Notes: a model not told the origin generated them from the sequence alone. A DNA stretch of 64,000 nucleotides from Methanofollis aquaemaris (GCF_017357525.1 NZ_CP036172.1:1834561-1898560); one strand, 5' to 3'; shown: positions 15,577 through 38,735, numbered from the stretch's first letter. Made by a program: numbers and translations.

Positions 15577-16349
15577 AAAAACATTTTTTGATGAATGACA
15601 CGACTGCTGCCGGGGCGCTCCTCCTCGTGGCCGCCATCGCCGCCCTCGCCCTGGCTGGGCTGACCGGTCGGGGCGATCTCACGACTGCCATGCTTATCCT
15701 TGCCGGTTTTGGCTCGTTCGCCTCAGGGCTGTTTCTCCTTGCCCTCACCAGGGGACGAACGCCTGACCCGAAGTTCGCCGCCCTCCTGCCGGTGCAGGGG
15801 ACGGTCGGGATCGCCACGCTGCTTGCCGACCTCGGGGTGCAGGGGGACGCCAGGTTTTTTCCGCCCGACCCGAGGGGGCATCTCCGCGCCCTGATCCCTG
15901 CCGGGGGGCAGGTGCTCCGCTCTCCGCCGGAGAGCACCTATTCGTATCTCACGACAGAGGAGGGTGACGCCGTGATGATCACCCCACTTGCCGCCCCCTG
16001 TCTTTCCTATCTGAAAGACTCCTGCTCTTTTGAGGTGCCTCCCGAACGAGAACAACTCTGCGAGGCAGTCGTCGAGATCTGCAGGGATGTACTCGAGATC
16101 GCGGAGCGTATCGAGGCCACGTTTGACGGCGACAACCTTGTCGTCGACCTGAGGGGTTTTGCTCTTGCCAACGGCTGTCAGGCGGTCAGGGAGGTCTCCC
16201 CGAAGTGCTGCACCATGGTCGGGTGTCCCTTCTGCTCGCTCATCGCCTGCATCGCCGCTGAGGGGACGGGGATGCCGTGCCGGATCCTTGCGGCGTCATC
16301 CTCGAAAAAAGGGAGAAATCTCCGCCTCATCATCGGGCCGTCGGCCTGA
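15573..16349 (+). CDS. Membrane protein with cysteine-rich C-terminal domain, MoxR operon
   Basis: A 258-residue protein of unknown family. Two hydrophobic segments lie at residues about 12-30 and 36-60, and the remainder is soluble. The C-terminal region has a dense cysteine motif, KCCTMVGCPFCSLIAC (near residues 210-227), followed by GRNLRLIIGPS. The spacing resembles a metal- or disulfide-binding site, but no known cluster is matched. It starts by ATGA overlap with the upstream membrane protein and is the last gene of the operon. Its end overlaps the convergent DUF1616 gene by 20 nt. The function is unknown; association with MoxR and DUF58 suggests an envelope role. Confidence 0.7.
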   Translation: MKKHFLMNDTTAAGALLLVAAIAALALAGLTGRGDLTTAMLILAGFGSFASGLFLLALTRGRTPDPKFAALLPVQGTVGIATLLADLGVQGDARFFPPDPRGHLRALIPAGGQVLRSPPESTYSYLTTEEGDAVMITPLAAPCLSYLKDSCSFEVPPEREQLCEAVVEICRDVLEIAERIEATFDGDNLVVDLRGFALANGCQAVREVSPKCCTMVGCPFCSLIACIAAEGTGMPCRILAASSSKKGRNLRLIIGPSA

Positions 16350-17319
16350 CCGTGATCCAGAGGTGGAGATCCCGGTAACTCGCGTTGATCCGGTCCTTAT
16401 TCCAGACTGCATCTGAGGGCACCGTCTCGTTGAAGAGGAGGAACTGGAGGCGGTTCATCTCGGTATTGGTGACGGTGAAGTTGTACGGGCGTTCGACAGT
16501 CTCGTTGTGCGGCACCGTCACGGTGAACTGGTCGAGTCGTTCCATGGCGTTGATCTGTGAGGTGTTGGTGGCTTCGTTGAAGGTCTGGTTGGTGAGCAGC
16601 ACCTCCACGGTATAGGGCACTTCCCGGTACTCATGGTTCCCGATGCCGATGATGAGGGACTGTTCGCTCCCGGCGGAGAAGGTGGTCGGGTAGTCGGCGG
16701 CCTTCCCACCGGCGCCGAGGATGTAAAACTCGGTGAAGTGTTCGCCTTCTTTTGGGACGACGATGACGTAGACAGTCGTCACCACCGCCGCGAGGATGGC
16801 GAGGACCAGGATTACCGAGAGGGCGCGGTCGAGTTGTGACTGTTCTTCAGGGAAGAGTTCGGCCTTTGCCTCGGAGGCCATCTCCCTGAACGGAACGACA
16901 AAACGCCGATCGGCCGGGAGGAGCGCCCGCCGCCAGTGGGCGGCGATGAGCATCGCGAGGGTGAAGGCGATGAGAGAGATGAGGATGGGTTCAAGTCTGA
17001 TCCCCCATGGGGTGTAGTTGAGCGCGAGCCCGATGAGGGGGACGACCGCGATCGAAAGTCCGAAAGAGAGGGCGACCCGTTCGATGCCGTCGATGTCGTC
17101 TTTTTCAGGGAAGAGTGCGGCGATAAGGGCATAGCCCGGGATGAAGAGGACCATGGGAAGGCCGAAGATCACCTGGATGAATGTCCCGTGGGTAAGCGGG
17201 AGGTAGATCGCAGGGATGGTCGCGAGTGTCCAGAGGGCGATGAAGATGAGATCTTTTGGGGTGTGCTTTGGATCGAGTGCTTCAAGGATCACGGGCATCG
17301 CTGGCTGTTCTTCACTCAT
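16330..17319 (-). CDS. DUF1616 family membrane protein
   Basis: A 329-residue protein. The N-terminal half is four hydrophobic segments (residues about 25-45, 48-70, 84-105 and 110-132) with the family-typical FIPGYALIAALFP motif. A fifth helix at about 172-192 precedes an extracytoplasmic beta-rich domain with NHEYREVPYTVEV and several Asn-X-Thr/Ser sites. DUF1616 proteins are common in archaea near surface-glycoprotein and glycosylation loci; their function is unknown. It lies 19 nt after a surface protein gene on the same strand, and so probably shares its transcript. It converges with the MoxR operon. Confidence 0.85.
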   Translation of the reverse strand: MSEEQPAMPVILEALDPKHTPKDLIFIALWTLATIPAIYLPLTHGTFIQVIFGLPMVLFIPGYALIAALFPEKDDIDGIERVALSFGLSIAVVPLIGLALNYTPWGIRLEPILISLIAFTLAMLIAAHWRRALLPADRRFVVPFREMASEAKAELFPEEQSQLDRALSVILVLAILAAVVTTVYVIVVPKEGEHFTEFYILGAGGKAADYPTTFSAGSEQSLIIGIGNHEYREVPYTVEVLLTNQTFNEATNTSQINAMERLDQFTVTVPHNETVERPYNFTVTNTEMNRLQFLLFNETVPSDAVWNKDRINASYRDLHLWITVRPTAR

Positions 17320-17338
17320 GAAAACCTCTTAATACTTT

Positions 17339-18541
17339 TTATCTGAGTCTCTTGCCTGTGATCAGGGCGATGACAAGAGCGCCGATGGCACACCCGACCG
17401 GAAGTGGGGACTCCTTCGGTGTCGTAGTGGTGGCAGTATGGGACACTGTGGGGTTTGTAACTATTGTGGCTGTTGTGCCGGCAGGGGCTGCGGCGGTTGT
17501 GTGTGCAAGAACTGGTGTCACGATCGCAAACTCGCCTGCTTCTGAGATCTCTGTCGATATGGTCGATCCGTTGATCCGGCTTGGCAGGGGTTTCCAGCGT
17601 CCGTCGATATACGCGAGGATAGTGAGCGAAGCGGTTTTGTCGACCCCGGCCTTGTTCAGGTCAAGGGTGAGGGTCGCCCCGGGGTTGAAGGATGCACCTG
17701 ACGGAAGGATTGCGTAGGGGCCGGCGGCCGCCTGCCAGTTCTCGGGCACGGCACGGTTGCTCACCATGATGGCAAGGTCATTGGTCCGGGCACCGGAGAG
17801 AGACTCTTCATCGAAGGTGAGGACTGCGCTCCTGTCAAGGGATGAGATGGTCAGGGTCTTCTTTTCGGTCGTTGTCGTCGTCACCGTGCTGTCGTCCCAA
17901 CCCGACGAACCACTGCTGGAGGAGGATGTCGTTGGTCTGGTCGTCGGTACAGTTGTTGGTTCCGAGGCGAGGACAAGGGCGCCGTCGACATAGATTTTTA
18001 CGTTGGCGGTCCCCCCGTTCAGACCGCTGATCGTGAAGGTCATGTCCGAGTTCTCGGGGCCGACCTTCTTTCCTGAGAGATCCATCGAGGTCGTCACAGA
18101 GTCTGCTCCGGCGGTGCCCTCCCCGTTGAGGGTGATATACTGGATGAGTCCCTGTGGGATGTCGTTGTTCTGTCTGATATCCACAACACCGTCTTCGCCG
18201 TCGCCATAGACCATGACGGTCTTGCCGCCCATTTTCGCGCTGAGGCCTGCGGTCTTCACGTTCTCCGCGTGGATCGCGATCCGTCCGTCATCGAGGGCGA
18301 AGGGCATCTGGAAGTTGTTGGTGCTTAGCGAGAAGCGTCCGTCTGTGTCGAGGGGTATGGACGTCTCGATCTGGATCATGAAGGTACTGTTGTCGGGGAG
18401 ATCTCTGATCGAGATGGTGATCGGGTCATTCTCGCTGACGGGGTCTGGTGAAATGGTTACCGTTGCGGCAGAGAGTGGGGCGATAAGAATGATGAGCCCA
18501 ATAATCACTGTCAGCAATTCGGGGGTGCTGGGCAGTTGCAT
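17339..18541 (-). CDS. Secreted surface protein, paralogue of the protein at 33136-34332
   Basis: A 400-residue secreted protein. It has an N-terminal signal peptide ending near ALSAA (residue about 25), a beta-sandwich domain (about 26-190) with ISPDPVSENDPITISI, a Thr/Ser linker with TTTSSSSSGSSG, and a second beta domain (about 230-350) with NWQAAAGPYAILPSG and GRWKPLPSRING. The C-terminal hydrophobic segment with GKRLR could be a membrane anchor. Two Thr-rich linkers suggest glycosylation at the cell surface. It diverges from the subtilase operon across an AT-rich promoter region. A paralogue with the same two-domain layout lies at 33136-34332, also divergent from a surface-protein gene. 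No named family is recognised. Confidence 0.75.
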   Translation of the reverse strand: MQLPSTPELLTVIIGLIILIAPLSAATVTISPDPVSENDPITISIRDLPDNSTFMIQIETSIPLDTDGRFSLSTNNFQMPFALDDGRIAIHAENVKTAGLSAKMGGKTVMVYGDGEDGVVDIRQNNDIPQGLIQYITLNGEGTAGADSVTTSMDLSGKKVGPENSDMTFTISGLNGGTANVKIYVDGALVLASEPTTVPTTRPTTSSSSSGSSGWDDSTVTTTTTEKKTLTISSLDRSAVLTFDEESLSGARTNDLAIMVSNRAVPENWQAAAGPYAILPSGASFNPGATLTLDLNKAGVDKTASLTILAYIDGRWKPLPSRINGSTISTEISEAGEFAIVTPVLAHTTAAAPAGTTATIVTNPTVSHTATTTTPKESPLPVGCAIGALVIALITGKRLR

Positions 18542-18722: not shown

Positions 18723-21700
18723 TTGGCGTATTTACCTTTGCGTGGTCTTCTGACTTTTCTTATATTGCTGGTCCTGCTGGGTTCTGTCAATGCAGGAATC
18801 CCCGGCGGCACGGTCGTCCAGACGGACGAAAAGGTGCCTTTCATTGTTGTCCTCAAGGACCAACCGGAACGCGGAACGACTTTCTCGACGATGAAAGCCG
18901 AGGCTGCCGCCAGTCAGGCATCGGTGCTCTCGTCCATCAGTGCGATCGACTGCGCCGCCGCGCGATCCGCGGAGCGGTTCTGGATTGTGAACGCGATCCG
19001 GGTCGAAGTGGACCAGGCGACGATAGAAAAAATCGCCGCCCTGCCCGGTGTCGACCATGTGGAACCCGACCTGATGGTGATGGCTGACGACCCGGTCACA
19101 GGGACCTCACACATTGTCGATGCCCGGTACGTACGGAGCAGCGACACGTTTGTGATGCCCTGGAACCTCGACTGGGTCGAGGCGCCTGCTGTCTGGGGTG
19201 CCGGGAACCAGGGTGAGGGTGTCACGATCGCAGTCGTGGACACCGGCATCGACGCTTCTCACCCGGCCTTCGGCGGCCGCGTCAGGGCCTTCGCTGACTT
19301 TGTGAATGTGAGCAACACCCTGGCCAGAGACGACAACGGCCACGGCACTCACTGTGCCGGCACCGCCGCGGGCGGCGAGGTTACCGTATCTCGAAATAAC
19401 GGGGGTGACATGAACCTCGTCCTCGGTGTCGCCCCGAAGGCCGACCTGATCGGTGCGAAGGTGCTGGACTCTACAGCTGTCGGTCCTACCAGCACTATCA
19501 TCAAGGGTGTTCAGTGGGCGGTTGAGAACGATGCCGATGTGCTCTCTCTCAGTGTGGGATCCTACTTCTGGAAGTCGGATATGAGACCAAACGAGAACGA
19601 CGAATCATATCTCGCTATCGGGCCGGGAGAGACATTGACCCTGACCCTGGAGGTCTCCTCGAATTACGGTGGAGGCGCTGATGTTTATGAACCCCAGTTT
19701 GTTGTCGGCGGGTATGAACTCGAACAGATGGGGCAGTATTATGCGGCTGCACCATATGCGCCCACACCAGCCAATCTGACATTCTCCCTTACTGCGCCCA
19801 ACGGTGTCACGCCGGTGGGAGGGTTCATCGACTGGGGCGGCTTTGACCATTCGTCCTCCAGGGTGATGTTCAAGGCGCCGTACACCAGCAACAGCGGGAA
19901 CTGGAATGGTTTCTGGACACTGAATGTCACCAACAACGACAATGAAACGGTCTACCTGGAGCAGGCCGCGATCGCCGAGGCCTATGAGTCCGACGGGAAC
20001 ACCGCCTTTGACCTTACCCTGAACAACCTTGTCGAAGGCGGTGTGGTGGCGGTCGTTGCGGCCGGCAACGACGGTTATTTCGGCACCGGCACCATTGGGA
20101 CGCCTGGCACGGCGGCGGACGTGATCACGGTCGGCGCCACCGACTACTGCATGGACTACCGGGCGAGTTTCAGTTCCATCGGGCCGGTGAACCAGGCAAA
20201 CCCCTATGTCAAGCCTGATGTGATGGCCCCGGGTGTCGGCGTTCTCTCCGCCTGTCCGGACGGACAATACGGCGTGATGGACGGCACCTCGATGGCGACA
20301 CCCTGCGTTGCCGGCACGGCCGCCCTCATGCTCGCCGGGAATGATACCCTGACGCCGGCAGAGGTCAAGCAGACCCTGATGGACACGGCTGTCCATATCA
20401 GGGAGGACGGCACGGCGATGGCGACCCCTGAACTGAACAACCTCTACGGCGCCGGCCGGATCAGTGCCTACAGGGCTGTCGAGGCCACCGGCGGGTTGCA
20501 CGGTGCCCCCGAAGCGGCCTCCTCTCTGACCGAACTCTTCGGCGGGCCCTACTATGATCTGAATGACCCGAACACGGTGGAGGTGCTTGGGGTCTGCTGG
20601 AACGCCACGGCAGGCGTCCCTGTTGCTGGAGAGACAGTGAATTTCAGCCTCTATCTCTACGAAAACTCTAATTGGAATATTTACCGAACACAGTCGGCCT
20701 TCACGGATGCCGACGGCATGGCGACCACCTCCTTCGATATCTCAACTCTCGCCGCGGGTCGGTCTTTCAAAGCCGAGGTGACGTGGGGAGACCGCGTCCT
20801 GTCCGGTTCCTACGGGAAGTACAGCACGCCCGGCAGTGGTGGCACGAACACTCCTTCTGCTCCGATCTATGAGGCGCAGTCTTTTATCGCTCCACCGGAC
20901 GGCGCCGTCACGATCCGCTATCCACTCCTGAACATTGATGGTTCGGCCTACACCGAACCGGTCAGGCTGGTGGTGGCGAACACCACGACCACGTTCTTTG
21001 ATGATAACCTGACCCCGGTCGACGGTGTTGTCACGGCCACCGTCGACTTTGCGGGCTTCAATATCGATCCTTCACTCTATTGGACACGTCCCCGCATCAC
21101 GATCAACGGCCGGTCTGCCGGGACAGTGTCGTTTTCGTATGAGGTCTACTATGGGGCCATCTCCTCCCCGAGACTGGCGATCTGCCCGCCCGGCAGTTCG
21201 ATCGACATCGCCCTGCAGGTCGCTGAGCGTCATGGCAATGGTGGCACCGTCACATCGAAGGACTACAAGGTGGACGTGACCGCCTTCACCGAGACGCAGA
21301 TCCTCTCCCTCTCGCCCGATCTCATCGGTCAATTTGCAATCGGGGCACCTATCGGGGGTGCCGCCCTTCTCGAAGCGGCAGGTGGTCTGAAACCCGTAGA
21401 GTCGACCGGGATGGTCAGCGTCACCAACGGCATCGGCATCTACAACTTCACGATGCCGGCGGGATGCTCTGTGGCGGTCGTCAGTTTTGCCGATCCGGAT
21501 AACGAGTATAATGAGCGGGACTCGTTCATGATCTCGGTCGTCTATGGTTCGATGTCGCCCTGGACCCTCCACCGCGTGACCCCGCCGGTGCCGGTCGCAC
21601 TGGAGGCGCTGGACAGTACCTATATCGGCATCTCAGACTACGCCTGGCCGGCGACCTGGAACCAGAGCGAATACCGCTCGGTGCCCGGCGACCAGGCCAC

Positions 21701-24059
21701 CCTTACGGCCTTCGTACTTACCGTGAACGGCACGACCTACGATGTAACCCGTGACGCCGGAAAGACGGTCCGGCTGTACACCGCCGACGGTGTCCGGACG
21801 AACACGACCGACGTCAACGGCACCTGCACCTTCACGCTCGACGTGACAGGAAAGACATCTGAGGACGTGATTCTGCTCACCGAGGGCATCGACTTCTCTG
21901 CGGGAATATTTCCCTATATTCCCTTTGAAATCGACTCAAAAAGCCGTATTTATCCCGGCCTCCTCGAATGCGAACCCGGGACTGCCGCAGCCCTCACGAC
22001 TCTCCGCCCGGCGTCGGAGACCCGGTGGATGGATGTCACCTATCCGGGCAGCGGTTCGTACCAGGTGTCGCTCCACTCCTATGGTCCGGACGACACCCCG
22101 ATCACCGAGCGCGGGATCTTCACCGCAAGTCCCTGTGCCGATTGGTGTACGCAGGGGACCGAATTTGCCGACACGTTCGCCTACATCGGTGACTGGACAA
22201 AGACCATCACCCCGGCCATGAACGGAACCTATGTGGCCCACGCTTCGGTCCTCCGGGGTGGAAAGTTCGTCGATTGGATAGGTCAGATGTTCAGCGTGCC
22301 CGAGGCCCATGTCAACTACACCGTGAAACCCGATATTCTGGTCGGATCAACGGTCCCGGTGACTTTCACCGTCGCCGACGATGACGGCAACCCGATCAGC
22401 AACGCCAAGGTGGGTTTCCTCCTCGGCGCGGCTGCCCAGGCCAATTGCGGCGTAGACTGCTACGATATCCGTCCGATCAACCTTGAGCACCTGGAGATGG
22501 AGTACCCTGATCCGTATTCCGAGGTGCTCGTCGGTTATACCGATGCGAACGGCCAGGTCATCCTGAACATCCACGCCCCCTCGGCCGGGATGGCGATCGA
22601 AAGGAATCTCCTTGGCTTCTCCGACTATGTGCCCTACAGGACGGTCTGTTACAAAGGCGACGAGGTTATCAAGGGCTGCATGGAGTTCGAGATGGAGCTC
22701 GACATGCAGTATTATGACGGCACCTTCAGACTCACCGCCGAGCCCCTGCCCGACTTTGTCCCCGGCGTCCGCGCACCCCATGTGGTGAAGGTGCACAGGG
22801 ACGACACGATCGTGGTCGACAACCTCTATCTCGACATCACAAACCAGGGCACCGCGGACTTCGTCCACACTGACACGGATATTGTGGTGAAGGCATCGGT
22901 CGGGAACAGAGACCAGTCCACCACCTATGCCGGCAACATCGCTGTCGGCGAAACAAAGACCGTCCTGCACCTGGGTTTCGAGGCAGCCGCCTCCGACTAC
23001 GGCATCGACACCAGCAACTACAACCTGCCGGTGGACATGAACATCGACGTGACGGTGAATCAGGATCGGACGATTGCCGAGGTCTCCTATGCGAACAACA
23101 ACATCGTCTATCCGGTGCGGATCACCGCTCCCGACCTCGTGGCGGAGATAAATGTCCCCTCAGTCGTGATCGAGAGCGGCACCCCGACCCCGGTCGCTCT
23201 GGTCGTGACCAATCAGGGCGAGGTGCCGGCCGTTGCAACCACCATGACCTACGTGACCACCGGGAGCCCGGCCGAGACGATCGCCGTCCCGGCGCTCGGC
23301 GCCGGCGAGTCCTGCACGGTCTGGAGAAACAGAACTTTCCTCACCGATCCCGGCGCCTACACCCTCAATTTTGAGGTGAACTCGAACGGTGCAACCGACT
23401 ACGAGACCACGTTTGCGAACAACAAGGTGACGCGGACGGTGAACTGCTACCTCCACCCACTGACCTCTGTCGTGCTGCCGCAGGACCTTGTCCTGGTGCC
23501 GGGAACGACCTACGACCTGCCGATCGTGGTGAACGGCGCAGAGAACCTTTCGGCCTGCCTGATGACCTTCACCTTCGACCCGGCGGCCTTCACGGTCACC
23601 GATGTGACCCCGGGTGCGATCCCGCTGATCGCAGAGAACCTCAAGACCCCAGGTGAGGCGATCTTCGAGGCTGACGCTCCAACCGGCGTCAGCGGTGATG
23701 TGACCGTGGCCACACTTCACCTCTCGGTGACCGGTTCGAGCGGTACCATGTCGGCGCTCCACCTTGACGCTGAACTCAGTGACGAGAACGAGTACTCGAT
23801 CCCGGTCGAGGTGACTCAGGGCAGCGCCGTCCTTCTCCTGTACGGCGACGCGAACGATGACGGGAAGGTCAACCAGGCCGACACCCTCCGCGTCCTGAAA
23901 GTGGTCGTCGGTCTGCCGACGGCGCCGATGCCGGCCACTGGGACAACGCCCTTCCTCCAGGCGGACGTCCATAAGAACAGCGTCATTGAGGTGGGCGATG
24001 CGATGTTCATCGCCCAGAAGAATGTGGGCCTCAGGGATCCGTACTTCAGGATTGTGTGA
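18723..24059 (+). CDS. Giant secreted subtilase with CARDB, cohesin-like and dockerin-like modules
   Basis: A 1778-residue extracellular serine protease of family S8, starting at TTG behind a perfect GGAGGT. Order: signal peptide (1-24); I9-type inhibitor propeptide (about 35-120); catalytic domain with Asp173 (VVDTGID), His207 (NGHGTHC), oxyanion Asn449 (AAGND) and Ser523 (GTSMATP). A beta-sandwich of about 130 residues (about 300-430) is inserted between the His and Asn motifs. Long beta-rich regions follow, then two CARDB-like repeats (about 1350-1570), a cohesin-like domain (about 1577-1706) and a C-terminal dockerin-like module (about 1707-1778) with calcium loops DANDDGKVNQAD and DVHKNSVIEVGD. 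All catalytic residues are present, so it should be active. Carrying both cohesin-like and dockerin-like parts, it could form chains with its neighbours. Confidence 0.92.
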   Translation: MAYLPLRGLLTFLILLVLLGSVNAGIPGGTVVQTDEKVPFIVVLKDQPERGTTFSTMKAEAAASQASVLSSISAIDCAAARSAERFWIVNAIRVEVDQATIEKIAALPGVDHVEPDLMVMADDPVTGTSHIVDARYVRSSDTFVMPWNLDWVEAPAVWGAGNQGEGVTIAVVDTGIDASHPAFGGRVRAFADFVNVSNTLARDDNGHGTHCAGTAAGGEVTVSRNNGGDMNLVLGVAPKADLIGAKVLDSTAVGPTSTIIKGVQWAVENDADVLSLSVGSYFWKSDMRPNENDESYLAIGPGETLTLTLEVSSNYGGGADVYEPQFVVGGYELEQMGQYYAAAPYAPTPANLTFSLTAPNGVTPVGGFIDWGGFDHSSSRVMFKAPYTSNSGNWNGFWTLNVTNNDNETVYLEQAAIAEAYESDGNTAFDLTLNNLVEGGVVAVVAAGNDGYFGTGTIGTPGTAADVITVGATDYCMDYRASFSSIGPVNQANPYVKPDVMAPGVGVLSACPDGQYGVMDGTSMATPCVAGTAALMLAGNDTLTPAEVKQTLMDTAVHIREDGTAMATPELNNLYGAGRISAYRAVEATGGLHGAPEAASSLTELFGGPYYDLNDPNTVEVLGVCWNATAGVPVAGETVNFSLYLYENSNWNIYRTQSAFTDADGMATTSFDISTLAAGRSFKAEVTWGDRVLSGSYGKYSTPGSGGTNTPSAPIYEAQSFIAPPDGAVTIRYPLLNIDGSAYTEPVRLVVANTTTTFFDDNLTPVDGVVTATVDFAGFNIDPSLYWTRPRITINGRSAGTVSFSYEVYYGAISSPRLAICPPGSSIDIALQVAERHGNGGTVTSKDYKVDVTAFTETQILSLSPDLIGQFAIGAPIGGAALLEAAGGLKPVESTGMVSVTNGIGIYNFTMPAGCSVAVVSFADPDNEYNERDSFMISVVYGSMSPWTLHRVTPPVPVALEALDSTYIGISDYAWPATWNQSEYRSVPGDQATLTAFVLTVNGTTYDVTRDAGKTVRLYTADGVRTNTTDVNGTCTFTLDVTGKTSEDVILLTEGIDFSAGIFPYIPFEIDSKSRIYPGLLECEPGTAAALTTLRPASETRWMDVTYPGSGSYQVSLHSYGPDDTPITERGIFTASPCADWCTQGTEFADTFAYIGDWTKTITPAMNGTYVAHASVLRGGKFVDWIGQMFSVPEAHVNYTVKPDILVGSTVPVTFTVADDDGNPISNAKVGFLLGAAAQANCGVDCYDIRPINLEHLEMEYPDPYSEVLVGYTDANGQVILNIHAPSAGMAIERNLLGFSDYVPYRTVCYKGDEVIKGCMEFEMELDMQYYDGTFRLTAEPLPDFVPGVRAPHVVKVHRDDTIVVDNLYLDITNQGTADFVHTDTDIVVKASVGNRDQSTTYAGNIAVGETKTVLHLGFEAAASDYGIDTSNYNLPVDMNIDVTVNQDRTIAEVSYANNNIVYPVRITAPDLVAEINVPSVVIESGTPTPVALVVTNQGEVPAVATTMTYVTTGSPAETIAVPALGAGESCTVWRNRTFLTDPGAYTLNFEVNSNGATDYETTFANNKVTRTVNCYLHPLTSVVLPQDLVLVPGTTYDLPIVVNGAENLSACLMTFTFDPAAFTVTDVTPGAIPLIAENLKTPGEAIFEADAPTGVSGDVTVATLHLSVTGSSGTMSALHLDAELSDENEYSIPVEVTQGSAVLLLYGDANDDGKVNQADTLRVLKVVVGLPTAPMPATGTTPFLQADVHKNSVIEVGDAMFIAQKNVGLRDPYFRIV

Positions 24060-24070
24060 GGTGATTGCAG

Positions 24071-27000
24071 ATGAATGTGAAAAATATCCTGATGGTGGGG
24101 TTTCTCCTCACCGCTCTTCTGGTATCGGCGGCGTCCGCGGCTGACCTTGTGGTCACGCCGCAGAGTTCTACGAGTGCGCTCGGTGAGGTCACCGAGGTGA
24201 CACTGCGGGTTGAGAACGTGGCCCATCTCGGCGGGTTCGATATCGATCTCCACTGGGATCCCTCGGTGGTCACGCTTGACACCGAACCGGACAATGTGAC
24301 CATCGGTTCCCTCTTCTGCGGCCATGTGAACAACTCCGCATGGGGTAGTGATCGCGGGGGTGTCCGCGTGGCGGCGTTGAACGCCAGTCTTGACGGTGTC
24401 TCGGGTGCCGCTGAACTCTTCACCGTGCGCCTGAAGACGGTTGACGACACCGGCAAGTCGACACCTGTTGCGGTTGTGGTGAACAATTATGGATTCCTCA
24501 ATTCGACAAGCGGTGACGACATCCCGGTGAACACGATCACGAACGCCACGATCACCGCGCAGCGGGTCAACCGCATCGTCTCGTATGTTGGTGTTACGGC
24601 CGAGTCCGTCCCACTGGATGCCGAGACTGTCAGTGTCTTCACCGTGGCAAACCAGCGCAATGTCCTGACCTCGAAACTGACGATCAACAGCACCATCTAC
24701 GCCCCCAACGGCTCGGTCTTCAACACCGAAGAACGGAGTGGGGTTATTCTGAAGCCATACGAGCAGAACGTGCAGCAGATCGCATGGACACCGACGCAGA
24801 CCGGCACGTATGTCCTGAATGTGACGGTGACCTCCGACACCGATCTCCCGGTCGTTGGAACGACCACGGCGGAACGCTCGGTGGCCGCGCGCAACTTCAG
24901 CCTTGAGTTTCATCCGTATGTATACGGCTACTCCCGTCCCCAGGTGGACACATGGTTCTGGATGGTATGGTATGTCAAACCAAGTGAGAGCGGGAAGGTA
25001 AAACTGAACCTGAGTGTGCCGGAGAGTATCGAGGTCTGGGGCGAGGCCGAATCTGAACTGTGGATGACCGGCGATGCCCTGAACTATGTCGCGTTCCGTC
25101 TGCGTGCCACCGAGATCGGCACCTTTACCCGTGACCAGTTCAACCTGACGGCGTCGGCACACGGAAAGACGGCCTCGAAAACGAGCACTCATGATGTCTC
25201 AGTCTGGGTACCTTCGATGGAGGTATCGTCGGTGGACTCGGTGAAAGTTGACACCACCGGTGATTTCGAGATGTCCTACAACACCCTCCACACCAACAAC
25301 ACCTGTGACAACCAGACCACTATCATTGTGCAGTCGGGCGCCCGCGGCCGGACGCTCGCCGGTCTTGGCTATCTTGTCGGTTATCCGTATGGGTGTGTCG
25401 AGCAGACCACGTCGAGGATGCTCGCCTCAATGAACGTGAAGAACTACTATCTTGACCGTTCGGACAGGCCGGCCAATTTCCAGATCATCCGCAATGATGC
25501 GAACACCTCGGTGAGCAACGGTGTGGTCAAACTGGTGCGCGGGGGCCAGGTCGGTCAACATGAAGACGGCGGCTGGAGTCTCTGGGGCTGCGGCGAATCC
25601 GAGTCCTCTTCCAGTTCGTACGCCGCCTACACGCTGGCGCGGGTGAACGAGTCGGGCGAAGACCTGAACCACCTGCTGAACGGCAAGGTCAGCAGCGACG
25701 CGACGGTCGACGATGGCACGGTCAACTTCGAGAAAGCGGTCGAATGGTTCCACGAAAACCCGGACGACGATTCGAGCGGCACCTGGACGTGGAGCGCGGG
25801 CGTTTGCCATGCGTGGACGCCGACCTCGAACACCGGGTTCGTGATGCTGATCCACGATATGATCCGGGATCAGGGCACGGTTGCAGAGCCCTATGCGACC
25901 TACATGACGGAGAACATGCAGAATGCCACGCGTTACTTCGTTGGAATCCAGAATTCGGATGAAGGTTACTTCGGCAATGGCCGCGACCGGGCTATGGCGA
26001 CCGCACTCGGGCTCTGGGGTCTTGAGGTCTATGGGACGCCCTCGGATGATGTGACGCAGGACCAGATCAACGATTCAAAGGCGAAGGCAACCGAATGGCT
26101 TATCAAAAACCATGATGCCGACGGTTGCTGGGGCGCCGACCCTGTCTATGGGTACAGCAGCAAGGGTCGGAGATCTGAGAGCACCGCCTACGCCATCCTC
26201 GCCCTGAACGCCACCGGCATCCCCGCGGAGAACGAGACGATCCAGGGTGGCGTGAACTGGCTTGTCGAACAGTACGAGTCCGGCGGGAAGTGGGGATACA
26301 CCTGGGCAACCCAGGCGGCGATCGACGCTCTCATCCACTGTCAGCCGATTGAGGTCAGTGACGGCACGCTCTCGATCTCCATCGACGGGGAAGACATCTG
26401 CACGCTTGAGGTCAACGAAACGAACCCGAAGGTGGAGTACCCCCTCACTGCTGATCAGATGGCGACGGTGATGGCGAACGGTAAGTCGAAACGCGAGATC
26501 ACCCAGTACTCGAAGGTCAAGCAGCACGCCGTCACGGTGACCAGGAACAACGGCAATGGTATGATCCTGGTCTCGATCGAGAACACGCAGCGCGCACCGG
26601 TGAACGAGATCGACGATCCCATCGAGGACACCGGCACCATCCTGTCGACCGGCGGCATCATCCCCGACAACGGGTCGCCGGATGTGGTCCAGTTCTCAGA
26701 GGACATGGACATCCTTGGCGACGCCGCACCCGGAGATCTCTTCGATACGGTGACCCTCACCTCCGACCCGTCCCCGCTTGTTGCGAACGAGTCAGGAAAG
26801 GTGGCGATCCAGGTTGTGTCAGGCGTTCAGGGTGTCTTCTCGCCGATGATCGAGGTGCCGATCGAGGGATTCACCTTTGCAAATGGTACCATCAGCGATG
26901 AGAATGGGAACGATGTAGCCTATCAGGTGCTGCACGGTTCGGTCAACACAGACTCGACCTCGATCTTCATCCAGGCCAATGAATGGACCAGTGATGAGAC

Positions 27001-27898
27001 CTACACCTATGTCTTCGACGCCAAACCCACCCATGTGGGCACTCTCAACTTCAACCTCAGGTTCAAGGCGCTCAATGACGAGGACAATGTCACGCTTGTC
27101 GAGAAGAGTCTGGACGTCATCGGACGCGGCGATGTGGCGGTGAAGGTCACCGACGAGAATGACAGCCCGGTCGTGGCGACGATTGTCCTCGACGGTTCAA
27201 GCCAGACGGCGTCGAGCCACACCTTCGAAGGTCTGCTTGTGGGCAACTATTCGCTCTCGGTCTCGAAGGAGAACTACATCACGGTGAACACCACGGTGAG
27301 CGTCGAGGCGAACGACGAGACCAATGTCACGGTGATGATGCCGACTGATCTCACGACGCCGCGGCTCATCTTCTCCCAGGGCAGCGGTATGCTTGCCGGC
27401 GTCTCGAAGGTTCCGGGCACACTCTCTGCGGCCTTTGCGGAGAACGTTACCTACAATGCGACGGTCGTCGGGAACGGCGGGAGAATAGTACTTGCGCTGG
27501 AATTCCCGCAGCGTTTCCTGTTGAACAACCCGGTGGTGCGGTTGAACGGCGTGGTGCTTGACCCGAGCCAATATGAGATCAGGAGCGGGACGTTCTCCAA
27601 CCCCGATCCGTATGAACCGTTCTCAACCACCAATGCGACGATCATCATCTATGACGCCCCTGACGGTGTTTCAGAGATCTCGATCGAGTTCATAGGTGGA
27701 CGGGCAGGACAGGCGCTTGTTGGCGATCATGAGACCGGCATTCTGGATGCTCTTCGTCTTGCTCAGTTTGATGTAGGACTGAAAGGTGCCCCTGAAACAT
27801 TCGGATACGGTGATGTCAGCGGCGACCTGATGGTCAACATTTTAGATGCGCTCAGAATCGCTCAGTACGACGCTGGTCTGATTCCTGATCTCGCTTAG
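24071..27898 (+). CDS. Alpha-2-macroglobulin-like thioester protein with cohesin-like and dockerin-like modules
   Basis: A 1275-residue secreted protein; the ATG at 24071 follows GAGGTGAT. Order: signal peptide (1-22); cohesin-like domain (about 24-162) with GGFDIDLHWDPSVV; beta domains (163-400); a thioester-domain segment with YPYGCVEQTTSRML, where Cys442 and Gln445 match the internal thioester motif of alpha-2-macroglobulins; an alpha/alpha toroid (about 445-760) ending in a GYTWATQAAIDAL helix typical of these domains; more beta domains; a PEGA/carboxypeptidase-regulatory-like fold (about 1022-1092); and a dockerin-like C-terminus (about 1217-1275) with two LDALRLAQ/LDALRIAQ helices. The first dockerin calcium loop is degenerate. 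The gene starts 11 nt after the subtilase stop. Terpene-cyclase-like toroids look similar, but the Cys-Gln pair favours the macroglobulin reading. Confidence 0.85.
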   Translation: MNVKNILMVGFLLTALLVSAASAADLVVTPQSSTSALGEVTEVTLRVENVAHLGGFDIDLHWDPSVVTLDTEPDNVTIGSLFCGHVNNSAWGSDRGGVRVAALNASLDGVSGAAELFTVRLKTVDDTGKSTPVAVVVNNYGFLNSTSGDDIPVNTITNATITAQRVNRIVSYVGVTAESVPLDAETVSVFTVANQRNVLTSKLTINSTIYAPNGSVFNTEERSGVILKPYEQNVQQIAWTPTQTGTYVLNVTVTSDTDLPVVGTTTAERSVAARNFSLEFHPYVYGYSRPQVDTWFWMVWYVKPSESGKVKLNLSVPESIEVWGEAESELWMTGDALNYVAFRLRATEIGTFTRDQFNLTASAHGKTASKTSTHDVSVWVPSMEVSSVDSVKVDTTGDFEMSYNTLHTNNTCDNQTTIIVQSGARGRTLAGLGYLVGYPYGCVEQTTSRMLASMNVKNYYLDRSDRPANFQIIRNDANTSVSNGVVKLVRGGQVGQHEDGGWSLWGCGESESSSSSYAAYTLARVNESGEDLNHLLNGKVSSDATVDDGTVNFEKAVEWFHENPDDDSSGTWTWSAGVCHAWTPTSNTGFVMLIHDMIRDQGTVAEPYATYMTENMQNATRYFVGIQNSDEGYFGNGRDRAMATALGLWGLEVYGTPSDDVTQDQINDSKAKATEWLIKNHDADGCWGADPVYGYSSKGRRSESTAYAILALNATGIPAENETIQGGVNWLVEQYESGGKWGYTWATQAAIDALIHCQPIEVSDGTLSISIDGEDICTLEVNETNPKVEYPLTADQMATVMANGKSKREITQYSKVKQHAVTVTRNNGNGMILVSIENTQRAPVNEIDDPIEDTGTILSTGGIIPDNGSPDVVQFSEDMDILGDAAPGDLFDTVTLTSDPSPLVANESGKVAIQVVSGVQGVFSPMIEVPIEGFTFANGTISDENGNDVAYQVLHGSVNTDSTSIFIQANEWTSDETYTYVFDAKPTHVGTLNFNLRFKALNDEDNVTLVEKSLDVIGRGDVAVKVTDENDSPVVATIVLDGSSQTASSHTFEGLLVGNYSLSVSKENYITVNTTVSVEANDETNVTVMMPTDLTTPRLIFSQGSGMLAGVSKVPGTLSAAFAENVTYNATVVGNGGRIVLALEFPQRFLLNNPVVRLNGVVLDPSQYEIRSGTFSNPDPYEPFSTTNATIIIYDAPDGVSEISIEFIGGRAGQALVGDHETGILDALRLAQFDVGLKGAPETFGYGDVSGDLMVNILDALRIAQYDAGLIPDLA

Positions 27899-27908
27899 AG
27901 GTGGTATC

Positions 27909-28670
27909 ATGAAATCATCATCATTTTTCTTTATTCTGGCAATTCTCTCGACGGGCTTGATTTATCCAGCGATTGCCGCGTCCGTCGTGTACGAGAACAA
28001 CTCTCTTGTCATCAGAGGAGTGCCGGACGACGGCATCGGCCTTGGTGCATTTGATATTGTTCTCCTTTATCCGGAGGATGTTCAGGTATCGGGCGTCACG
28101 CTCGTCCCTCCGTTTACAGGTGCTGTCAACGATCAGCAGGAAGGGAGAGTGGTCCTGGCCGGGTTCCAGGTCTCTGACGTACTCACCGGCGATGTTCCTG
28201 TGGCTTCACTGACGGTCGCGGGCGACCCCGATTCTCTGGATATCAAAGTGCGTTCTCTGCTCAATCAGAGAACTGAAGAAATTCTAAGAACCAATGCCGA
28301 TTATTCTGAATCTGTATCGCCGTCAGATGGAGGATCTGATGGTTCAGGGGTTTCTTCAGGATCTCAGACCCCTGTGACTTCCGGGGTTGAACGGAGTACA
28401 GGGACTGGATCATCCGGAACATCATCAGGGAAGGTGATTGAGAGGGAAGGCACCGAGGTTGCTATAGATTCTCAATTAAAGTCGGTTATGGGATCAGATG
28501 AAAACACCACGCCGACACCGGATGTTCCAGTTTCAAGCCCTTCAAATCCTGTAAAAGAAACGACCCCCCAGAGGTCTCCCCTTTCGTGGGGGACCATATG
28601 CATGTCTGTTGGTGTGCTTTGTATTGGAAATCGAATTTTATCAAAAATGAAGAGGTGCGATGATGCATAA
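27909..28670 (+). CDS. Small membrane-anchored cohesin-like protein
   Basis: A 253-residue surface protein. A signal peptide covers residues about 1-24, and a single cohesin-like beta-sandwich spans about 24-125 with GAFDIVLLYPEDVQVSG, which parallels the cohesin core of the two upstream proteins. A Ser/Gly/Thr-rich linker (about 130-215) follows, and the C-terminal hydrophobic segment WGTICMSVGVLCIG plus basic KMKRC looks like a membrane anchor. The layout matches a scaffold that displays one cohesin-like domain on the membrane to hold dockerin-bearing partners. GAGGTGG precedes its ATG. It lies 10 nt after the macroglobulin-like gene and overlaps the next gene by 11 nt. Confidence 0.8.
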   Translation: MKSSSFFFILAILSTGLIYPAIAASVVYENNSLVIRGVPDDGIGLGAFDIVLLYPEDVQVSGVTLVPPFTGAVNDQQEGRVVLAGFQVSDVLTGDVPVASLTVAGDPDSLDIKVRSLLNQRTEEILRTNADYSESVSPSDGGSDGSGVSSGSQTPVTSGVERSTGTGSSGTSSGKVIEREGTEVAIDSQLKSVMGSDENTTPTPDVPVSSPSNPVKETTPQRSPLSWGTICMSVGVLCIGNRILSKMKRCDDA

Positions 28671-31600
28671 ACTCAGATTGTTAGTACTTTCAGGTCTGTT
28701 GCTGCTGTGCTGTCTTGGAACGGTGCAGGCGGCCGGAACTGGAATGATTTACGTCACTAATGTTACGGACATTAACTCGACAGAACCTGGTACGGTTCAT
28801 CTTTATCTGGATAACCGGTTTGATCCCCCGGCTGCGGCCTACAATGTCCGGTTGATCTATGACGACACTGTCATCTCCTATGTTGACGGGGTGAAAAAGA
28901 ATGCCACGAACATCAACCCGACGGGCAATGTCATCACGATCAATGGTATTGAGGCAATCGGGTATCCTGCCGGTCCGGTATGGTTGGCTGATCTGAGATT
29001 TGGTGCGGTTGCCGATCCTCCGGATGGAGGTTCGTCCTCTGTTAACATTACTGTGAATACAGTGGGAGATACTGACATCACGGATGTGAAGGCAAATGTA
29101 ACCGTTCGGAACGGTACCGTCACCACCCGTGACGAGGTCGCCCCCAATGTCACCATCGCCACCCCCACGACAGTCTCCTCCACCTTTAACGTCGCCGGTA
29201 CGATTCACGACGTCGGCGGCATGGGCACGGCGATTGCTTACCTCGACAACGGCACGGTTAACGAGACCGTGGACCTGATGCCCCTCACCCGGACCGCCGC
29301 CGACACCTGGACCTTCGACACCGCGGTCACCTGGCCGGTTTACGAACCGGTGACCATCAAGATTTCTGCCACCGACGTTGCCGGCAACACCGCCGTGCCC
29401 CTGCAGACGAAGGTGGTCCAGGTCTCCGAGGTAGGTTTCTCCGACCCCGAACCGACCGGTTACATCAACAGGCAACCCGACAAGATCCAGGTCTTCACCC
29501 GGCGGATGAATCCCACCTCGGTCACGATGACCCTCACCGGGCCTGCGACGATCCCGCTCGACGTGACCTTCGATGGCGACTATGCGCAGAACATCTCCGT
29601 TCCCACTCTCGCCGATGGAACCTGGTATGTGAACGCCACCGGTACCGACACGCCCGGTGGGAATCCCCGCTATCTCAACTGGAGTTTTGTCCTCGACACA
29701 GTCCCGCCGGTGATCAACGCCTTTACCATCACCGACACCGACGGTGACGGTTACCTCGAATCCGGCGAAGTGCTGAACTTCAACTGGGACGTATCCGGTG
29801 CGGGCGTCGTCCTCCTCATGGACAACGTCACCCATGAGGTCTTCTTCGCTTCGACCGATGCCATCGGCACCAACCATACGACCATCGACGTCGGCAACCG
29901 CGACATGGTCTTCGTCGCCTTCGACGAGGCTGCAAACGCTGCGTATGTGCCTTTCCATCTGTATTACAACTACATGGCGTGGATCAACTCCACCAGGATC
30001 GGCACGGTCTCCGGCATCGACACCAACCTCTCTGCGGTGCGCCAGCTCGACCTGACCGCGCAGGGCTCGGTCGTCTTCTACAATGCCCGCGACGTTCCCT
30101 CCGTTCCGATCGGCACGGTTAAAAGGACGGCAACAGGGGTCGGCCAGGTGACGAGCGACACTTATGTTGCGGTCGACAACACCGTCAATGCCACCTATAC
30201 CGGCGCCGACACCTATGACTGCGTCTGGACCTACAACCCGTGCAGCGATCTTGACTTCCTCGTGCAGGCGCCCAACATCAATGCCGCGAACATCATAGTC
30301 CTGGAGGCAAACGAGAGTTACCTTGCTCAACTGGCCAGAGAAGGCGAGTCCGCACGCGACACGATCAATTACAACGACCTCATCCAGAAAGAGGCCTGGA
30401 TCTTCATTGACGGTGGGTACACGAAGATCAAGGTCAATCCTGATGGCACCTTTACTCAGCCTGAAAAGGCCGGCAACCCTCTGATCGTCGCGGCATCTGG
30501 CAATATCATCGACACCCTCCGTATTGCCGATAACCAGGTCAACCTGACCGCCGGGTACTGTCTGGGCACCCAGGGTCTTCCTGTCATCAAACTCCCGGCC
30601 GGTGACTTTGCCCTGGTCGCCATCAGCATGGACGGCGACCGTATCGGTGTCATCACCGGGATGCCCTTCACCGTCATGGAATGCGCCGAAGTGGGCACAG
30701 TGCCTGCATCGGTGACCCGCGGCACGCCCTTCACCGCCGCCTTCCCATCCGAGTGCGATCGCATTGGTACGGTCGTCATCAGGCATGCCACCTGGGACGC
30801 CGATGTCTGGGTCAACGCCAGCACGATTAATCATGATTCGGTCAGTGTGAACCTGACATACGACGGTGTCCCGGCCACGCAGCACCTCTATCACAACATC
30901 TATACCAGCCCCAACGCGGCCGCGTACGCCTATGCCACAAACGCAAGCTCGGTCTCGGTCCCGACCGACAACCTCTGTGCCGGCACCTATGATGTCCACC
31001 TGGTCGCCGTCTGTGAAGAGAACGGCACGGTCAGATCCTACGGCTACCACCAGATCGCGGTGCAGAACCCCTGCGCCCCGGTGGCCGCCTTCAGTGCCGA
31101 CCCGATGACCGGCTTTGCCCCGCTCACCGTGAACTTCACCGACGAGTCCACCGGCCACATCAACACATGGTACTGGGAGTTCGGTGACGGCACCACCTGC
31201 TGGAATCCCAATCCGGCCCTCCACACCTTCAAGAACCCCGGCACCTATCAGGTGAACCTGACCGTGTGGGGCTATGGCGGTAGCAGCACTACTTCAAAGC
31301 AGATCGTCGTCATATCCCCAACGCCGGTCGCAAACTTCAGCGCAACACCGAAAAGCGGGAATGCGCCGCTCACGGTGACCTTCACCGACAGATCCACCGG
31401 CAACATCACCGCCTGGGCATGGGAGTTTGGTGACGGCTCCACCTGTGGCAATCAGAACCCCTCCCCCCATACCTACAACGCCACGGGCACCTATCAGGTG
31501 AACCTGACGGTGACCGGCCCCGACGGCAGTAACACTGCATCCACGGTGATCACGGTGACCGATGTGGCCGCACCGATCGCCAGTTTCACCGCAACGCCGA

Positions 31601-32718
31601 CGAGCGGGTATGCGCCGCTCACGGTGACCTTCACCGACAAATCAGTAGGGAACATCACCTCCCGGTTCTGGGACTTCGGTGACGGCACCAACTGTACCCA
31701 GGAGAACCCGACTCATGTCTTTAATTCGGTCGGAACCTACACGGTGGGCCTGACCGTGACCGGTCCTGGCGGTGCTAACGCCACCTCCACGACGATCACC
31801 GTCAGGAAGAGGTCTTCAGGCGGTAGTGGTGGAGGAGGGGGCCGTTCCTCTCCCCCGACCCAACCGATCGGCCCCTCGGCCCCTGTTGCAGATCTCTGGG
31901 CCGCCTTCGCTCTGAATGGTGCGAACTTCACGACCACGGATGGAACCCAGACCTTCTCGATCGACCTCGATGAGGCGGGCAGGATCAAAATCGAGGGTGA
32001 TATCATCACCTTCAAGAAGAACGGTCTGATCATTGAGATATTGGCGTCTGATCTCAAGAAGACCGGGAACACCATCATCGGCACGGTCAAGTCGGTGAAA
32101 GTCAGGGCCGACCCGCTTGAGACCGAAGTTGAGGGTCTCGGGAATGTTTCCGCACGATTCACTGCAGATTTCCCGTCCTTCCCGTTGAACGGCACCCTCC
32201 ATGCCACACTGGTCGAGAACGTCACTGAAAATGTCTCCTCGGCCTACAGTCTCGCCCTCCTCGACAAGGGGTTCGAGGTCTCCGAGATCGCCTATACCAT
32301 GAAGGTCGTCAAGAAGGGTATCGGGAAGAGCGGTCCCGCGACGATCACGATGACCGTCCCGCCCGAGTGGGTGACGGCCCGCGGCGGCGTTGAGCAGATC
32401 CGGATCCTCAGGCTGGCCGACGACGGCACCACCCAGGTGCTTGAGACGGTCTTCAAGGGCTATGATGCCAACGGCCACTACATCTTTGAGGCGGTCTCTC
32501 CTGACGGTCTCTCCGAGATCGGGCTGGTGGCGGTGACCGCGTCGACCGGCGTCACGGTGCGGCCCACCGATGTGGGCGTCGGCGTGGAAACCCCTCCGAC
32601 GCTCCCGGCCGGCGAGACGCCCACTGACGGGGGTCTCCCGGTCGGTGTGATCGCCGTGCTCCTGGTGGCCATCGTCGCTATCGCTGCGGTCGGCTACTAT
32701 CTGCAGAAGAAGGAATAA
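28660..32718 (+). CDS. Giant PKD-repeat surface protein with N-terminal cohesin-like domain
   Basis: A 1352-residue surface protein ending the subtilase operon. Order: signal peptide (1-25); cohesin-like domain (about 27-150) with PAAAYNVRLIYDDTV; Ig-like domain (about 155-265); a long unclassified region with many N-glycosylation sites; three PKD domains (about 806-1048) carrying WEFGDG, WEFGDG and WDFGDG; a Gly/Ser linker; a C-terminal domain (about 1075-1300) resembling the domain that precedes PGF-CTERM tails in archaea; and a final membrane helix VGVIAVLLVAIVAIAAVGYY plus KKE. Two adjacent ATGs exist; the second, at 28663, is better spaced from GAGGTG. PKD domains usually mediate surface protein-protein contacts. 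The last 300 residues are nearly repeated in the protein at 34427-36637. Confidence 0.85.
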   Translation: MMHKLRLLVLSGLLLLCCLGTVQAAGTGMIYVTNVTDINSTEPGTVHLYLDNRFDPPAAAYNVRLIYDDTVISYVDGVKKNATNINPTGNVITINGIEAIGYPAGPVWLADLRFGAVADPPDGGSSSVNITVNTVGDTDITDVKANVTVRNGTVTTRDEVAPNVTIATPTTVSSTFNVAGTIHDVGGMGTAIAYLDNGTVNETVDLMPLTRTAADTWTFDTAVTWPVYEPVTIKISATDVAGNTAVPLQTKVVQVSEVGFSDPEPTGYINRQPDKIQVFTRRMNPTSVTMTLTGPATIPLDVTFDGDYAQNISVPTLADGTWYVNATGTDTPGGNPRYLNWSFVLDTVPPVINAFTITDTDGDGYLESGEVLNFNWDVSGAGVVLLMDNVTHEVFFASTDAIGTNHTTIDVGNRDMVFVAFDEAANAAYVPFHLYYNYMAWINSTRIGTVSGIDTNLSAVRQLDLTAQGSVVFYNARDVPSVPIGTVKRTATGVGQVTSDTYVAVDNTVNATYTGADTYDCVWTYNPCSDLDFLVQAPNINAANIIVLEANESYLAQLAREGESARDTINYNDLIQKEAWIFIDGGYTKIKVNPDGTFTQPEKAGNPLIVAASGNIIDTLRIADNQVNLTAGYCLGTQGLPVIKLPAGDFALVAISMDGDRIGVITGMPFTVMECAEVGTVPASVTRGTPFTAAFPSECDRIGTVVIRHATWDADVWVNASTINHDSVSVNLTYDGVPATQHLYHNIYTSPNAAAYAYATNASSVSVPTDNLCAGTYDVHLVAVCEENGTVRSYGYHQIAVQNPCAPVAAFSADPMTGFAPLTVNFTDESTGHINTWYWEFGDGTTCWNPNPALHTFKNPGTYQVNLTVWGYGGSSTTSKQIVVISPTPVANFSATPKSGNAPLTVTFTDRSTGNITAWAWEFGDGSTCGNQNPSPHTYNATGTYQVNLTVTGPDGSNTASTVITVTDVAAPIASFTATPTSGYAPLTVTFTDKSVGNITSRFWDFGDGTNCTQENPTHVFNSVGTYTVGLTVTGPGGANATSTTITVRKRSSGGSGGGGGRSSPPTQPIGPSAPVADLWAAFALNGANFTTTDGTQTFSIDLDEAGRIKIEGDIITFKKNGLIIEILASDLKKTGNTIIGTVKSVKVRADPLETEVEGLGNVSARFTADFPSFPLNGTLHATLVENVTENVSSAYSLALLDKGFEVSEIAYTMKVVKKGIGKSGPATITMTVPPEWVTARGGVEQIRILRLADDGTTQVLETVFKGYDANGHYIFEAVSPDGLSEIGLVAVTASTGVTVRPTDVGVGVETPPTLPAGETPTDGGLPVGVIAVLLVAIVAIAAVGYYLQKKE

Positions 32719-34332: not shown

Positions 34333-34426
34333 TCAGATCACCACTAGATTTACCATATTTTTCAGATCTAGTTTTGAGTACAAATAAAAAAACATATCAC
34401 TATTGAAGATATATTATTGCCCTATC
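34333..34426. promoter_or_regulatory. AT-rich divergent promoter between two surface genes
   Basis: The 94-nt gap is AT-rich, with an AAAAAAACATATCA tract (34386-34399) about 30 nt before the plus-strand ATG and a TTTACCATATTTTT tract nearer the minus-strand start. No Shine-Dalgarno is seen before 34427, so that transcript may be leaderless. Confidence 0.5.
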
Positions 34427-38063: not shown

Positions 38064-38735
38064 ATGAGCACCGAGGTTATCAGGCTGGAACATGTGCGGA
38101 AAGTTTATCCGCGGCTTGCCGGAGACGTCGTCGCCCTTGACGACCTCTCCCTTACGATCGAGGGGGGTGAGTTCGTGGCCGTGATGGGCTCATCCGGATC
38201 GGGCAAGTCTACGCTCATGAACCAGCTCGGCTGCCTCGATGTCCCGACCTCCGGCAACCTCTGGATCTCCGGAAAAAACGTAGGTGAGATGAGCGACTTC
38301 GAACTGACCGAACTGCGCCGCGACACTATCGGGTTCGTCTTCCAGAAATTCAACCTCATTCCGGTTCTAACAGCGCGGGAGAATGTGGAGATCCCTCTCA
38401 TCCTCAAAGAGAAACATCGGGACACTGAGGGCCGGGCCGAGGCCCTCCTCAGGACCGTCGGGCTCGAAGGCGAGGTGATCACCCACACCCCGGCAGAACT
38501 CTCCGGCGGTCAGCAGCAGCGGGTGGCCATCGCCAGGGCCCTGGTCAATGACCCGAAGATCCTTCTCTGCGACGAACCGACCGGGAACCTGGACTCAAAG
38601 ACGAGCACGCAGATCATGGATCTCCTGGCCACTCTCCACCGTGAGGGTCGGACGGTGGTGATGGTCACCCACGACCAGGCCACCGCCGGGTACGCCGACC
38701 GGATCGTGACCATCTCGGACGGGCGGGTGGTCTGA
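38064..38735 (+). CDS. ABC transporter ATP-binding protein (MacB/LolD-like)
   Basis: A 223-residue ATPase of the MacB/LolD/FtsE group. Walker A SSGSGKST is at residues about 43-50, the Q-loop is GFVFQKFNLIP, the signature LSGGQQQRVAIARAL lies near residue 140, Walker B is ILLCDEPTGNLD, and the switch histidine is in VTHD. These ATPases power lipoprotein or peptide export through a FtsX-type permease, which is the next gene, starting immediately after this stop. An AGATAG run precedes the ATG. The substrate is unknown; adjacent secreted-protein genes fit an envelope role. Confidence 0.93.
   Translation: MSTEVIRLEHVRKVYPRLAGDVVALDDLSLTIEGGEFVAVMGSSGSGKSTLMNQLGCLDVPTSGNLWISGKNVGEMSDFELTELRRDTIGFVFQKFNLIPVLTARENVEIPLILKEKHRDTEGRAEALLRTVGLEGEVITHTPAELSGGQQQRVAIARALVNDPKILLCDEPTGNLDSKTSTQIMDLLATLHREGRTVVMVTHDQATAGYADRIVTISDGRVV

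Follow-up and report, generated by a model that had tools for sequence, protein, structure and literature searches.

The 64,000-nucleotide stretch of the Methanofollis aquaemaris chromosome analysed here (NZ_CP036172.1:1834561-1898560, hereafter the window) carries a compact unit of four genes on the plus strand, with intergenic gaps of 5, 10 and -11 bases. In order, the products are an S8 subtilase, a protein with a thioester domain (TED), a small membrane cohesin, and a large membrane protein combining a cohesin-like module with PKD domains (Table 1). An earlier note on this DNA had delimited a surface locus of three genes at 18723-28670; those genes are real, but the extent was short, as the fourth gene (28660-32718) belongs to the same unit. 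Signal peptides and transmembrane (TM) segments in the predicted proteins point to a location at the cell surface. Pfam, profile comparison with the PDB, and AlphaFold2 models searched with Foldseek together agreed with the note in finding cohesin folds throughout and dockerins at the ends of the first two proteins. Compared by hhalign, the four cohesin modules recognised one another with 84-98% probability, against 0.1-1.4% for seven Ig-like or other domains taken from the same proteins as controls.

Table 1. Features of the four-gene unit, in window coordinates.
Feature	Position	Strand	Description
Gene 1, secreted S8 subtilase	18723..24059	+	1778 aa; Pfam S8 177 bits
Gene 1 cohesin, aa 1593-1700	23499..23822	+	Pfam Cohesin 26.1 bits, cut-off 24.1
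Gene 1 dockerin, aa 1707-1764	23841..24014	+	Asymmetric, conserved
Gene 2, TED protein	24065..27898	+	1277 aa
Gene 2 N-terminal cohesin, aa 26-168	24140..24568	+	Strongly conserved in type A cassettes
TED, alpha-alpha toroid, aa 434-760	25364..26344	+	Pfam TED_complement 36.4 bits, cut-off 22
CVEQ thioester motif, aa 444-447	25394..25405	+	CxEQ in 23/23 orthologues
Gene 2 dockerin, aa 1208-1277	27686..27895	+	Hypervariable; two repeats mutually matched
Gene 3, small membrane-anchored cohesin	27909..28670	+	Signal peptide, cohesin, Ser/Thr-rich low-complexity linker, C-terminal TM
Gene 3 cohesin module	27972..28310	+	AlphaFold2, Foldseek, hhalign
Gene 4, large surface protein	28660..32718	+	N-terminal cohesin-like module, three PKD domains (Pfam), C-terminal TM
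Gene 4 cohesin-like module	28729..29133	+	Profile match to NagJ cohesin-like module (8.7e-5), also to scaffoldin cohesins
Docking block: TED dockerin, gene 3, gene 4 cohesin	27686..29124	+	Edges are domain borders

The gene 1 product comprises a signal peptide, an I9-like prodomain, an S8 domain with an insert of about 140 aa, a CARDB domain, a cohesin and a C-terminal dockerin. It had been described as an intact protease, and its Pfam score and active-site residues bear this out, the triad D173, H207 and S523 and the oxyanion residue N449 all being in place. In the genome search the cohesin reached 32.8 bits, while the dockerin, which holds two F-hand repeats, scored 18.9 bits on the whole protein and 23.9 bits, above the cut-off, in the genome search.

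The gene 2 product begins with a cohesin, followed by macroglobulin (MG)-like and CUB-like parts, the TED, a PEGA domain and a C-terminal dockerin. The profile of its cohesin matched the solved ScaB cohesin at 8.7e-6 and an Archaeoglobus fulgidus cohesin at 0.0019, and hhalign paired it with the gene 1 cohesin at 98%. The dockerin, again with two F-hand repeats, belongs to a family whose profile matches solved dockerins at 3e-11. The alpha-2-macroglobulin-type thioester motif and toroid proposed in the earlier note are both present, and a thioester is presumed to form. An AlphaFold2 model of residues 170-880 had a predicted local distance difference test (pLDDT) value of 73; its best 50 Foldseek matches were all C4, C3, C5, CD109, A2M, A2ML1 or TEP1, and about 680 columns aligned to C4/C3/CD109/TEP1 as an MG-CUB-TED fragment. 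The further claim, that the protein is a macroglobulin trap, was not borne out. Bacterial macroglobulins depend on MG domains arranged as a ring, together with a bait region (PMC4498604), whereas only MG-like, CUB and TED parts were recovered here, no MG or bait model exceeding the Pfam cut-off in gene 2. The TED starts at about aa 434 and the first 168 aa are signal peptide and cohesin; the MG/CUB-like stretch ahead of the TED thus amounts to about 260 aa, against about 950-1500 aa in most of the complete bacterial relatives fetched (proteins of about 1500-2300 aa). Because ring and bait region are both absent, the trap is rejected: caging by the gene 2 protein does not look possible, though it may still couple covalently.

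Gene 3 had no Pfam match, and its profile had no sequence match in the PDB. The AlphaFold2 model of its module, built from a six-row alignment, reached a pLDDT of 91.5 and a predicted template modelling (pTM) score of 0.83, and the top 18 Foldseek matches among 350,542 PDB chains were all cohesins or cohesin-like modules, the second best being the non-cellulosomal A. fulgidus cohesin (2xdh). With hhalign the module paired with the remaining three cohesins at 84-94% but with the Ig-like controls at 0.1-1.2%, in keeping with the note's view of gene 3 as a small membrane-anchored cohesin-like protein. Downstream of gene 4, the last part of a 744-aa gene (34403-36637) is nearly identical to the C-terminal part of the gene 4 protein, which suggests a recent duplication or gene conversion. 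The setting is non-cellulosomal, as had been supposed: each protein has one cohesin, and no glycoside hydrolase was found in the four genes or in the 23 other dockerin proteins scanned. A cellulosome was ruled out by the lack of carbohydrate-active enzymes and of a scaffoldin with many cohesins.

The order of these genes is kept across relatives; neither of two outcomes that the note had named as refuting, folds other than cohesin or dockerin and homologues whose genes never adjoin, was borne out. Among 135 Methanomicrobiales genomes at least 90% complete, the TED occurred in 21, and full-length gene 3 (E at most 5e-24) in exactly the same 21, the best match in a TED-less genome being 6e-9. 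Together with one less complete congener and Methanogenium marinum, these genomes provided 23 loci, spanning three other families besides that of the window. TED, gene 3 and gene 4 are consecutive in all 23; the subtilase lies directly upstream of the TED gene in 18 and nearby in two more (L133 and L134). Two kinds of cassette were distinguished: type A, with a TED protein of 1.27 k residues and the motif GYPYGCVEQ, and type B, with a TED protein of 1.7-2.0 k residues, GYPHGCPEQ and extra N-terminal cohesin-like modules.

A survey of the phylum (392 genomes) added three strong TED genomes. Outside the order, one locus (L139) has subtilase, TED protein, small cohesin-like protein and gene 4-like protein in this sequence, and another (L141) has a dockerin-bearing subtilase, a DUF1616 protein, a TED protein, a dockerin protein and a PGF-CTERM cohesin. 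In a third (L140:8901-16907), S8 and TED are fused in a single open reading frame of 2668 aa. Next come a 420-aa protein equivalent to the C-terminal portion of gene 2, dockerin included, and a 265-aa cohesin with a C-terminal anchor. Given this fusion and the repeated adjacency, the protease and the thioester protein are likely to be functionally linked. A Nanohaloarchaeota contig from a metagenome-assembled genome (L025) also carries a TED gene followed by cohesin and dockerin genes, which may be real or a binning error.

The two dockerins of the unit are of different types. The subtilase has a conserved one (mean column identity 75%) with unlike repeats (NQADTL vs EVGDAMF). In the TED protein the dockerin is hypervariable from species to species, but precisely where it varies the two repeats are alike. 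They coincide at loop position 10 in 78% of proteins and at position 11 likewise in 78%, compared with 16% and 10%, respectively, once shuffled (p = 5e-5), and helix positions facing the same way also agree. Internal symmetry gives type I dockerins dual binding orientations (PMC4728124), and by analogy the TED dockerin can probably bind in two orientations as well. With one dockerin conserved and asymmetric and the other hypervariable and repeat-matched, it is unlikely that both share one cohesin.

The subtilase-type dockerin was found in 17 of the 135 genomes, namely all 13 with a type A cassette and four others. Outside the cassette it occurs in 11/13 type A genomes but in only 4/122 others (Fisher p = 2e-11, with kinship ignored), its carriers being subtilases, papain-family peptidases with lectin-like domains, NHL and Kelch/BNR propellers, and PKD, PEGA, GLUG or Big_2 proteins; the window genome has no second protein with this dockerin. 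The conserved TED cohesin is present in one copy per genome, in exactly the 13 type A genomes. Since it is confined to the type A genomes and the subtilase-type dockerin is also carried by other exoproteins, the TED protein is a candidate adaptor scaffoldin. Elsewhere in the window's own genome (G000:C1, about 2.35 Mb; L135:6924-9757), a second dockerin protein, with its own cohesin-like module, lies directly ahead of a cohesin protein of 604 aa that ends in a PGF-type anchor; the two form a minimal dockerin/cohesin pair of like layout.

Variation between species is concentrated in the docking block. The window and one relative (L013) are 84% identical over the TED body; identity drops to 21% for the TED dockerin, to 39% for the cohesin of gene 3 and to 24% for that of gene 4, before returning to 77% in the rest of gene 4. 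By segment, it falls from 74% at gene 2 aa 1121-1200 to 23% at aa 1201-1277, stays at 29-47% through gene 3 and at 24-30% over gene 4 aa 1-160, and recovers to 78% at aa 161-240. With a second relative (L014) the TED body is 69% identical, and the TED dockerin (71%), gene 3 cohesin (84%) and gene 4 cohesin (67%) are not depressed in this way. Similar block patterns were seen in other pairs, e.g., L014/L015, L128/L129 and L022/L133.

Co-variation among modules was assessed by partial Mantel correlation (n = 15), holding TED body distance constant. The TED dockerin co-varied with the gene 3 cohesin (0.67) and the gene 4 cohesin (0.55), whereas values for the other two cohesins were -0.19 and -0.30. 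The A/P class, at a position chosen by eye after both alignments had been viewed, was concordant between TED dockerin and gene 3 at 23/23 loci, and 5/5 independent switches agreed (sign test p = 0.06). The subtilase dockerin co-varied with the TED cohesin (0.52) and with neither gene 3 nor gene 4. The earlier proposal that a single membrane cohesin docks both partners is therefore not supported: the dockerin types differ, and co-variation with the membrane cohesins is seen for the TED dockerin alone. On these two grounds, a shared anchor for both dockerins was discarded.

Several further genes recur around the cassette. In the window it is bordered by a DUF1616 protein and by two 400-aa membrane proteins related to each other (16330-18541 and 33136-34332); DUF1616 lies near the cassette in 14/23 loci and also in L141, and the 400-aa family in 17/23. 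An ATP-binding cassette (ABC) ATPase and a MacB/FtsX-type permease (38064-39896), about 5 kb 3' of gene 4, have counterparts near the cassette in L014, L015 and L016. Additional short dockerin-bearing subtilases lie beside the cassette at L127:1872-3596 and L134:522-2330. Among PADLOC anti-phage models, only generic subtilase models matched gene 1, and none matched genes 2 to 4. A scan for sigma-70-type promoters (13 vs 5 expected) was set aside, as archaea use other promoters.

Taken together, the membrane proteins probably hold the protease and the TED protein on the cell through cohesin-dockerin plugs. The reading favoured here, tentatively and at slightly less than even confidence, has the TED protein as an adaptor that a species-specific plug moors to the cell and that acts with the protease in a complement-like covalent capture. 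Cohesin-dockerin plugs would hold a small assembly at the cell surface, the C-terminal dockerin of the TED protein mooring the adaptor to the membrane cohesins of gene 3 and perhaps gene 4. The subtilase in the first place, and other exoproteins too, would dock via the conserved dockerin, most probably by plugging into the N-terminal cohesin of the TED protein. The subtilase may then cleave either the TED protein itself or a target close by; once exposed, the internal thioester would bond covalently to the target, as in complement C3/C4 and insect thioester-containing proteins (TEPs), without any cage. Because the mooring plug is exchanged between species, the secreted adaptor would stay on its own kind. 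We infer the pairing of plugs with sockets, the activation by the subtilase and the nature of the target. A broader form of the proposal, in which the subtilase-activated thioester protein tags foreign cells, viruses or proteins as an archaeal complement-like system and the fast-changing lock retains the adaptor on its producer, is possible but somewhat doubtful.

A number of observations weigh against this interpretation. No subtilase was found in the examined stretch at three of the 23 loci (L018, L022 and L023), which shows that the protease is not an obligatory part. The TED cohesin co-varies equally strongly with parts of the S8 domain; since it thus follows other parts of gene 1, its match with the subtilase dockerin is a lead only, and the cohesin of gene 1 itself is an equally possible socket for the subtilase-type dockerin. 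At L129, L130 and L131 the gene 3 cohesins are 81-87% identical while the TED dockerins share only 41-53%. The first calcium loop of the TED dockerin in the window is four residues short, the full length being present in most relatives. Finally, the co-varying modules adjoin in the DNA, so that recombination of the block could yield the same signal.

The adaptor reading was weighed against other explanations. The TED protein could instead be a covalent adhesin or wall staple, whose thioester attaches it to S-layer or glycan of the same cell, or else to partner cells in aggregates, with the protease only maturing it. Methanogens live in aggregates. The PKD repeats of gene 4 and the lectin-like, NHL, Kelch and GLUG domains on other proteins with the subtilase-type dockerin would suit such a role; however, the nearest folds are complement, TEP and CD109 rather than bacterial thioester adhesins, and adhesion does not by itself explain the fast turnover of the mooring plug, which makes this explanation doubtful. 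That the co-variation reflects the swapping of one contiguous DNA block, the true binding partners lying elsewhere, is unlikely. The contiguity of the co-varying modules is in its favour, as is the co-variation of the subtilase dockerin and TED cohesin, likewise adjacent; yet in several pairs both ends of the block coincide with domain borders, linkage alone leaves the matched dockerin repeats unexplained, and gene 3 is never present without the TED.

An exoprotease assembly for peptide feeding, in which the TED protein keeps substrate or product near docked proteases, would account for the further S8 and papain-family peptidases with the same dockerin type, but it is quite improbable, as non-peptidases form the majority of such dockerin proteins and the window genome has no other copy of the subtilase-type dockerin. 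Lastly, a macroglobulin trap that cages the protease and is docked with the subtilase on a single membrane cohesin would fit the CxEQ-bearing TED and the subtilase adjoining it in 18/23 loci, and is very improbable given the missing MG ring and bait region and the different dockerin types of the two proteins.

The adaptor reading can be set beside several known systems. Secreted archaeal TED proteins with CxEQ were reported from Halobacteria and Methanomicrobia (27 proteins), with Ig-domain surface proteins, peptide transporters and endoproteases as neighbours; roles in conflict were proposed and C-terminal shuffling was not found (Makarova et al., 2021; PMC8416519). The main text on these alpha2-macroglobulin homologues leaves cohesins and dockerins unmentioned, whereas in the present loci the C-terminal dockerin is the very part that is replaced. 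Cohesins and dockerins of methane-cycling archaea have been reviewed (Chadwick et al., 2022; PMC9012536), and the systems of A. fulgidus and of anaerobic methanotrophic archaea (ANME) likewise lie outside cellulosomes; the pairing of TED and protease is not described there, while here the adaptor itself bears the reactive domain. Complement C3/C4, insect TEP1 and CD109 share the MG-CUB-TED order and the thioester motif with gene 2, which lacks their MG1-MG6 ring, has gained a dockerin, a cohesin and a PEGA domain, and is archaeal. The Escherichia coli protein ECAM has a homologous TED with CxEQ (PMC4498604) but also ten MG domains and a bait region, most of which gene 2 lacks. Adaptor scaffoldins of cellulosomes, such as ScaB, likewise have a cohesin at one end and a dockerin at the other and are moored to membrane cohesins; here, by comparison, there is one cohesin per protein, a central thioester domain and no carbohydrate-active enzyme found. 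The parts are thus known, but within an incomplete coverage of the literature no publication was found that joins archaeal TED proteins with cohesin-dockerin docking, nor any description of the combination or of the mooring polymorphism.

Archaeal thioester proteins had been listed before, with their retention on the cell and their partners left open. The locus offers a testable answer, since protease, reactive adaptor and membrane sockets are encoded in one operon conserved across families, and the modules are small and soluble. The hypervariable, symmetric dockerin would supply a naturally occurring set of orthogonal cohesin-dockerin pairs, and it hints at selection for docking that is private to each species; plugs that change so rapidly between species suggest a species-private surface machine not previously described. 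If the protease does activate the thioester, a two-part complement-like reaction would exist in archaea.
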